The notes below the pieces were generated by a model, which was given only the letters and a program-made list of their open reading frames with translations, was not told the DNA's origin and made no database searches. The translations under genes were made by a program, and so were the position numbers. From Pseudomonadota bacterium (GTDB lineage: Bacteria; Pseudomonadota; Gammaproteobacteria; Burkholderiales; Burkholderiaceae_E): DNA of 58,460 bases. Positions 37,621 to 54,087 of this stretch are shown one piece after another. How positions within the stretch are numbered: position 1 is the first letter of the stretch; the number at the start of each line of letters is the position of its first letter. Location of the stretch: positions 1 to 58,460 of the forward strand of contig JAKOZZ010000184.1 in assembly GCA_029779755.1 (NCBI GenBank), read 5' to 3'.

Positions 37621-37692
37621 CCGAATACCTCGTCAGGTACACCGCTGTGTACACATTGCCAATCCCGCTCCATCCGAGCGATTCTGCATAAT

Positions 37693-37763
37693 AACCTAAA
37701 GATTGCTTGACATCAAAACCTAGAACTTATAAAACATGAAACCCTAAGAATCGCGAGACCACC
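37693..37763. promoter_or_regulatory. 23-24-bp direct repeats (AACCTAnAnnTTnnnnnACATnA; 2 good + 1 weak) over the Fic gene promoter
   Basis: Units start at 37693, 37717, 37740 and overlap the -35/-10 elements. Confidence 0.55.
37707..37733 (+). promoter_or_regulatory. sigma70-like promoter TTGACA-N15-TATAAA
   Basis: -35 at 37707-37712, -10 at 37728-37733, in a strikingly AT-rich stretch. Confidence 0.6.
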
Positions 37764-51998: not shown

Positions 51999-52640
51999 CT
52001 ACCAGCGCAGCACGCGCGGCCCCAGCAGCGCCCCCAGCGCCGCGACCGCCAGCACACCCCCCACGTACCAGACGGCCAGGAACGGCGCGGCCATCTCCGG
52101 GCAGTGCAGGCTGTAGGCGGTCGCACCGATCGCCCCGGACAGCAGGCCGGCGACGGCCCCTGCGGCGCGCAGCCGCGTGGGCGCCATGCGCGCCATCGCC
52201 CGCATCGCCAGCACGAAACCGGGTAACGACAGCACCACGATGGCCACCGGGCACACCGCCCAGGTGGTGCCCAGCACGAGCGCGGCCCGCTCCTGCGGGG
52301 CGGCCGACCCGAGCGCCGCGAACGCGAGCGCCCAGAGGGCCAGCACCGGCAGCGCCGGCGCCCAGGCGAGCAGACCTGCCCGTGCCCCCGGACGGCCCAG
52401 CCGGCGGCCGAGCGGCAGGGCCAGCAGGGCGAGCGCCGCGACGAACCCCGCCTTGCCCCAGAACATCGGGGCGTGCGCCGCCTGCGCCAGATCCGGGCGC
52501 AGGCCCAGGGCCAGCAGCACCAGCACGGTCGCGCAGACGGCGCCCAGCGCGGCGGCCATCCCCCAGGTCCGGCCGGCCGCCCGCGGATCGGCCGCCACCG
52601 GCCCCCGGGCCAGCAGGTCGATCAGCTCATCGGTCTTCAT
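51999..52640 (-). CDS. NrsF (DUF1109) anti-sigma-F-like membrane protein
   Basis: [54 protein letters not shown]; overlaps the sigma gene end. Confidence 0.85.
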
Positions 52641-53208
52641 CGGCGCTCCCCCGGATGCGGGCGGCCAGCGCCTTCAGCCCGCGATGCACGCCGATCTTCA
52701 CGGCCGACTCCGACAGACCGGTGCGCTGCGCGGTCTCGGCCACCGACAGGCCTTCGAGCTTCACGTGCACGATCGGCAGGCGCTGCTTGTCGGGCAGGGT
52801 GGCCAGCAGACGGCCGAGATCGCGGCGCGCCTCCTGCGCCTGCGGCTGCGGGTCGGCCAGCCACTCGACCTCGTCGTCGAGCGGGTCGGTGACCAGCGCC
52901 TGCCGGCCGTGGCGGCGCAGCATGTCGACCAGCTTGTAGCGCGCGATCGCATGGACCCACGGCGTCAGCGGCTGGGCCGCGTCGTACGTGTGCCGCTGGT
53001 TGTGCACGGCCAGCAGCGCCTCCTGCACCAGGTCCTCGACCTCGTCGGGCATACGCGCGAGCCGGCGGCGGAAGAACCCCCGCAGCAGGGCGCCGAGTGC
53101 CTCGAGGAAGCGGTGATACGCCCGGGCGTCGCCCGCCTGCGCGGCGACCAGCCACGCCCGCAGACGCGCTTCGCGCTGCGTGGGATCGGCGGCGTCCGGT
53201 CGGTTCAA
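52627..53208 (-). CDS. sigma-70 family (ECF, SigF-like) sigma factor
   Basis: [74 protein letters not shown]. Confidence 0.92.
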
Positions 53209-53436
53209 TCATGTCTCCTGGTTCGTCGTCGCGTGCCATCCGGTTACAGCGGCCGCGCACACCATGCGCAGCCGACGCACCAAGCGCACCGGGCACGGCG
53301 GACGCGGCACAGGGTACTGCACGCCCCGAGCGGATCGCGCAGGTCGCGTCGGTGATGCCGATGTGCCGATGTGCCGGTGAATCCGATCGCGCCGGTCGTG
53401 CGGCCGGTGAGTCCGAGCGGGGCTGAAATCCTGACC

Positions 53437-53475
53437 CGGCGGCACAGGCGGCACAGGCGGCACTGGCGGCACAGG
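53437..53475. repeat. 9-bp tandem repeat GGCGGCACA (about 4 copies)
   Basis: ggcggcaca ggcggcaca ggcggcact ggcggcaca. Confidence 0.85.
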
Positions 53476-53476
53476 C

Positions 53477-53649
53477 TGTGGACAGGATCGTGGAGAAATC
53501 GTCGGAAAACCGCTGGGCAACGCGGGGAAAAGTGCGGGACAGGGGGCGGGGAAGACCGTGGACAACCCCGGGGCAAGGGGCGGAAAAGTGTCCGGACAAG
53601 CCGGTGGAAAAGCGACGGGAAGGGCTGTGGACGGATCTGTGGACAATCC
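53477..53649. repeat. phased array (~15 units, 11-12-bp period) of degenerate DnaA-box-like elements
   Basis: GG(A/G)(A/C)A(A/G) cores starting at 53480, 53492, 53504, 53515, 53526, 53537, 53550, 53560, 53571, 53582, 53594, 53606, 53617, 53629, 53641; terminal TGTGGACAA. Confidence 0.6.
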
Positions 53650-53685: not shown

Positions 53686-54087
53686 CTAGATCACCGCCAG
53701 GTGACGGGCGTGCGCACCGCGGACGGCGGACAGGGGCACCGACGCATCGAAGGTGGCGAGACAGCCGTCATGGGCAACGGCAAGCGCCAGCAGGTAGAGA
53801 TCGGTCACCTGCCGATGCCCGTGCAGGCGCGCATGGTCGAAGCGGGTCTCGTCGAGCAGGGCGCGCATCAGATCGCGTCGTCGTCGCGCAGCCGGTCGAT
53901 CACGGCGTTGGTGACCACGCCGCCGCGGCGGGCGAACGGCTCGATGCCATGACGGGCCGACGGTTCGGCCGCGCAGACCGGCGCGTGCCAGTCGCGACAG
54001 CACGCGGCCGGCCGTCTCGCCTTCGCGTCGCGCAAGCTCCTTGGCGGCGAGCAGCACGTCGTCGTCGATATCCAGCGTGGTGCGCAT
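53686..54087 (-). pseudogene. degraded vapBC-like toxin-antitoxin locus
   Basis: VapB N-term MRTTLDIDDDVLLAAKELARREGETAGRVLSRLARAGL in one frame, VapB C-term RRGGVVTNAVIDRLRDDDAI in another; VapC start MRALLDE joined to PIN C-term HRQVTDLYLLALAVAHDGCLATFD with the middle missing. Confidence 0.75.

Follow-up and report, generated by a model that had tools for sequence, protein, structure and literature searches.

DnaA is the protein that starts chromosome copying, and detailed knowledge of how it is controlled outside the replication origin (oriC) comes mostly from E. coli and B. subtilis. The locus analyzed here raises the question of what a long run of degenerate DnaA-box-like elements does in a 58,460-nucleotide stretch of DNA (the window, taken from a 4.39-Mb MAG, G000) that appears to lack the genes of a replication origin. 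As the first-pass annotation had stated, dnaA, dnaN, and repA were not found among the window genes examined, and a search of the whole MAG for DnaA also returned no match, dnaA being missing from the assembly.

The about 15 phased minus-strand elements described in that annotation were recovered as an unbroken chain of 16 TTNTCC-type units in the same direction (Table 1), where the core variants CTGTCC, TTGCCC, and CTTCCC occurred beside TTNTCC. Successive units were separated by steps of 11 bp (eight occurrences) or 12 bp (seven occurrences), with a mean of 11.47. The claimed spacing of 11-12 bp was therefore retained, while the single steps of 10 and 13 bp were dropped, as steps of 11 and 12 bp suffice. 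The mixture of steps excludes an in-frame coding repeat, in line with the earlier argument from phase, and with boxes of nine bases it leaves gaps of 2 or 3 bp. The exact box, previously placed at 53641-53649, has been repositioned as listed in Table 1. All exact and one-mismatch boxes of the array lie on the minus strand, as does the single chain found, and 5 of the 13 exact or one-mismatch TTNTCCACA sites of the window sit within the array's 170 bp. The units differ from TTNTNCACA by 2.4 mismatches on average, compared with about 3 for the units of relatives described below. The array has a GC content of 65%, against 71% for the window, and contains no AT-rich segment, as had been noted. Directly adjoining it, four 9-bp CGGCACAGG-type repeats at 53438-53476 run straight into the array; comparable 9-bp CGGCACAGG-like repeats in relatives resemble Gly-Gly-Thr coding repeats.

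Table 1. Positions of the array, its boxes, and the neighboring genes in the window.
Feature	Position	Strand	Basis or remark
Phased DnaA-box-like array, 16 units	53469..53646	-	chain score 57.8, shuffle maximum 19.8
Stronger array units (n=15)	53480-53646	-	
Weak lowest array unit CTGTGCCGCC	53469	-	
Exact DnaA-type box TTGTCCACA, upstream end of array	53638..53646	-	box matching
One-mismatch box TTTTCCACC	53603..53611	-	box matching
One-mismatch box TTGTCCACG	53557..53565	-	box matching
One-mismatch box TTCTCCACG	53489..53497	-	box matching
One-mismatch box CTGTCCACA, close to downstream end of array	53477..53485	-	box matching
ECF sigma factor (Sigma70_r2/r4_2), neighbor	52627..53208	-	outside the array's conserved context
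NrsF, anti-sigma partner of the ECF factor, neighbor	51999..52640	-	PF06532, 1.2e-63
Short ORF, VapB-like start and PIN/VapC-like end, neighbor	53686..54087	-	read from translation

The array is confirmed as a real feature. Chain scoring was devised after the array had been seen, and its figures express rarity rather than a strict p-value: against the score of 57.8, a total of 2000 dinucleotide shuffles of the array's own 195 bases gave a mean of 7.2 and a maximum of 19.8. A check of motif density, suggested in the first-pass annotation, came out in favor of the array, as no second chain scoring 9 or more was found in the 58 kb of the window, and the best chain in 453 kb of the same MAG's other contigs scored 9.6, with exact TTNTCCACA absent there. 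A three-core pattern matched the 4.39-Mb MAG only twice, both times within the array.

On the minus strand, the VapB/VapC-like ORF lies upstream of the array, and the ECF sigma factor and NrsF genes lie downstream. A Pfam search of the ORF gave nothing at 0.001; judging from its translation, it is probably what a deletion has left of a toxin-antitoxin pair. A protein search of genome contigs with the ECF factor returned relatives of 61-73% identity, nearly all from Betaproteobacteria/Burkholderiales. Relatives that have retained the ECF gene lack the array in the region upstream of it, which places the array outside that operon, and a conserved tie to the ECF-sigma/NrsF operon was ruled out. 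As a separate observation, GGTTACA/TGTAACC motifs 5' of the ECF-sigma gene (window 53238-53246; L035-L043) recur in most relatives, where they often form a divergent pair; the window has no divergent partner gene.

At the window's own locus, an array was found in none of the relatives examined, and direct DNA similarity to the whole array consisted just of CGGCACAGG-type repeats and chance matches. The conservation in sister genomes that had been proposed as a check thus failed at this locus, while similar arrays were found at other loci. These were identified with a profile (R1, sequence only) built from units of G000, G014, and G035 in a 4-unit alignment, which was used because overlapping or 6-unit array alignments slipped by whole units. 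R1 was applied position-blind to 74 genomes of the family, the genus, and 400 genomes of the order, followed by chain scoring; the three source genomes match by construction, and the remaining matches are independent.

A 24-unit array built in the same way occupies the dnaA-dnaN intergenic region of G014, a genome of the same family, and 7-unit arrays were found in the dnaA-dnaN intergenic regions of G073 and G077. Further arrays lie between yidC and mnmE in G001 (23 units, 3.6 kb from dnaA at C78:5619), between def and fmt in G003 (15 units) and G008, and beside pckG in G084, G035, and G090, where they are orthologous. In addition, G005 carries a 14-unit TTTTCCCGGTG-type 11-bp array (C465:7092-7241; L148, L191), apparently between convergent genes, on a contig without synteny with either origin region. 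Weaker chains that could not be placed occurred in G093, G082, G194, and G005 C180, and R1 gave no strong match in congeners including G002, G004, and G007. Exact TTGTCCACA was also present in the dnaA-dnaN regions of L060, L061, L066, and of G015. The arrays found in relatives have mixed 11/12-bp steps. Six order- or family-level matches (L123, L127, L142, L242, L244, and L245) were set aside as apparent coding repeats, a call made on their near-uniform 12-bp steps with reading frames unchecked. Literature searches of an open-access library, which lacks many subscription papers, turned up no account of such arrays.

The pooled units (n=87) had T1 in 71%, T2 in 85%, T4 in 83%, and C6 in 98%, though these units were partly chosen by the scoring scheme: the chain score selects box positions 1, 2, 4, 5, and 6, and only the other positions are independent evidence. 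Among the latter, A at position 7 reached about three times background, and the rest of CACA (the 3' half of the box) was poorly kept and not enriched. The array cores are alike and the linkers differ. In the orthologous G084/G035/G090 pairs, core identity was above linker identity each time, the margins being small and of untested significance. Relative to the flanking genes, the TTNTCC strand was co-directional at some loci and opposed at others, which argues for a role at the DNA level.

The positions of these arrays were compared with those of likely origins. In G003, the cumulative GC skew reached its minimum at 314 kb of a 548-kb contig, and at C5:313.7k a gap between two genes contains two TTATCCACA boxes spaced 33 bp from each other, one TTTTCCACA, and an AT-rich stretch. 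This site (C5:313695-313763; L177, L254), upstream of nudC, is likely the oriC of G003, 67 kb away from dnaA at 246.7 kb, and an equivalent site is present in G008 C41 (L255). The def-fmt array of G003, at 370.7 kb, therefore lies 57 kb from the likely oriC and is not itself the origin, which the skew minimum and the boxes at C5:313.7k rule out. In G015, a member of the genus of G084, G035, and G090, the dnaA-dnaN boxes (2541.5 kb) are close to the local skew minimum; the locus of the pckG array corresponds to 2508-2509 kb, 33 kb from these boxes. Each of the five array loci that could be placed (dnaA-dnaN in two genera, yidC-mnmE, def-fmt, and pckG) is either at dnaA or no farther than about 57 kb from a likely origin. 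The linkage holds mostly and is not universal, given the G005 C465 array and the unplaced chains of G093, G082, and G194.

The origin site itself appears to move within the genus. No boxes were present in the sequence inspected of the dnaA-dnaN gaps of G002, G003, G004, and G008. Boxes do occur between dnaA and dnaN in congeners G001 and G006, unlike in G003 and G008. Upstream of dnaA, TTTTCCACA was observed in 6 of 6 congeners (G001-G004, G006, and G008; L072, L074-L078), and in the family and order many further genera have TTATCCACA there, which suggests that the box in use has shifted specifically in this genus.

For the window, positions 2.2-50.5 kb are syntenic, in inverted orientation, with G003 C5:380-334.8 kb, the array end being the oriC side. 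Synteny stops at 50.5 kb, before the array, and the last 8 kb of the window, array included, are not syntenic; a position of the array near oriC is suggested by synteny with this one congener only. The GC skew of the window shows no switch at 53.5 kb, with only 4.8 kb of sequence beyond the array, and no AT-rich unwinding element was found in 80-bp segments near 53.5 kb, whereas the G003 oriC has one. Within the window, AT content peaks in an 80-bp stretch that is apparently intergenic (37681-37760; 65% AT in a window of 71% GC). Boxes were also absent upstream of the nudC loci of the MAG. Two such loci, on C191 and C446 (L258, L263), are near-identical, which suggests a strain mixture or duplicated contigs.

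Among the closest known systems are the arrays of E. coli oriC (R5M-tau2-I1-I2 and R4-C1-I3-C2-C3), whose low-affinity boxes all point the same way and are separated by 2-4 bp (PMC5742627; PMC10316083), compared with 2-3 bp here, and likewise carrying exact or near-exact boxes at or near their ends. For Thermotoga (T. maritima) DnaA, cooperativity on same-direction boxes is greatest at a 2-bp gap (PMC10316083). The shared direction and the gaps of 2-3 bp match the geometry published for DnaA oligomers assembled head-to-tail in oriC and thereby support a DnaA array. Unlike the E. coli oriC arrays, which have about five units, the window array has about 15, shows no adjoining unwinding element or IHF-like site, and is probably not at its own genome's origin.

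The array is also comparable to datA (the DDAH locus), where non-coding DNA outside oriC, on the origin side of the E. coli chromosome, carries a cluster of DnaA boxes that share one direction (PMC5742627); the essential datA segment of 183 bp is of similar size. The boxes of datA are few and widely spaced around an essential IHF site, whereas the window array is tight and phased; its boxes share one direction as in datA, and no WATCAANNNNTTR site at two or fewer mismatches was found within it. A datA-like function, including ATP hydrolysis at the array, is possible by analogy. Bacillus DnaA-box clusters, by comparison, consist of ordinary boxes. In the account of Okumura et al. (2012) cited in PMC5295017, B. 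subtilis has six clusters per genome, near but outside oriC, which limit free DnaA and whose removal leads to earlier initiation; the window has instead one long phased array of degenerate units. More generally, DnaA boxes are enriched close to oriC in E. coli (PMC12371093). The E. coli loci DARS1 and DARS2 are likewise DnaA-box loci outside oriC, but their cores need head-to-head boxes I and II (PMC5742627), and the array is wholly head-to-tail. The DARS-like part of the first-pass reading is disfavored on this ground, while its DnaA-related, helically phased binding array is supported by similar arrays at dnaA-dnaN, by their mostly origin-linked positions, and by an oligomer-like spacing. 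With clustered sites well above background in a non-coding region, the array would be a variant of the DnaA-box cluster if DnaA binds it.

Four other explanations were weighed. That the array is the DnaA-oligomerization part of this genome's own oriC, relocated from dnaA, is unlikely, even though the apparent variation of origin location within the genus, the nudC-linked likely oriC of G003 and G008, the box-free dnaA-dnaN gaps of four congeners, the lack of boxes upstream of nudC in G000, and the same array type in the dnaA-dnaN regions of G014, G073, and G077 are consistent with it; the unswitched skew, the missing unwinding element, and the separation of the G003 def-fmt array from the skew-minimum oriC speak against it. 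Somewhat less probable again is a helically phased array for another protein, nucleoid-associated or regulatory, preferring TTNTCC/GGNNAA. Such a protein would fit the weakly kept 3' half of the box and units such as TTTTACCGG (G003) and TTTTCCCGG (G005) that are distant from TTATCCACA, but it would leave the dnaA-dnaN and mostly origin-linked placement unexplained, and the array contains exact or one-mismatch DnaA boxes.

A functionless, decaying 11-12-bp minisatellite is improbable. The array locus is not conserved, a 9-bp CGGCACAGG repeat adjoins it, and the orthologous G084/G035/G090 arrays have strongly diverged, all as such decay would predict; a neutral repeat is nonetheless made less likely by cores that stay alike while linkers vary, a pattern seen in all orthologous pairs within the small margins given above, and arrays recur at independent origin-linked loci. 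Rho favors an 11-12-nt spacing of TC/CC type, and the array could in principle act through RNA, either as a Rho-utilization site with regular pyrimidine-C dimers in a minus-strand transcript or as a CsrA-sponge RNA with plus-strand GGA motifs. The minus strand is indeed C-rich and A-poor, has TC/CC spaced at 11-12 nt, and places the array downstream of an ORF. These RNA-level readings are nevertheless very improbable and are disfavored because the orientation to transcription flips between loci, the def-fmt and g15 dnaA-dnaN arrays being antisense to genes; besides, the array linkers are G-rich and many G014 and G003 units lack GGA.

The explanation preferred here, at somewhat better than even confidence, is an origin-proximal DnaA-binding array that sequesters or oligomerizes DnaA and works in the manner of datA or the Bacillus clusters, although it cannot be counted as an established case of either. 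From sequence comparisons, we infer the binding of DnaA, the formation of an oligomer, an effect on initiation, and the distance to the genome's own origin. DnaA-ATP would be nucleated at the exact box TTGTCCACA and at several one-mismatch boxes, and the degenerate same-direction units at gaps of 2-3 bp would then allow head-to-tail loading, building an unbroken oligomer that could reach about 15 protomers. If close to oriC, the array would double soon after initiation, and the doubled array could withdraw DnaA-ATP through titration, perhaps also through ATP hydrolysis, which may help avert early re-initiation. Rather than a repeat that arose by chance, the array is probably a control site that holds DnaA.

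More broadly, and with rather less than even confidence, the arrays may represent an undescribed class in one Burkholderiales family: long (7-24 units), unidirectional, 11-12-bp-phased DnaA-filament arrays that are usually origin-proximal, move between intergenic sites as origins relocate, and serve as a DnaA sink or decoy origin. With its tight, unidirectional units and a length far beyond that of the E. coli oriC arrays, such an array would lend itself to asking how far a DnaA filament can reach on duplex DNA, and whether DnaA is titrated or inactivated by a filament away from an unwinding element. Origin relocation inside one genus is also suggested by the comparison.
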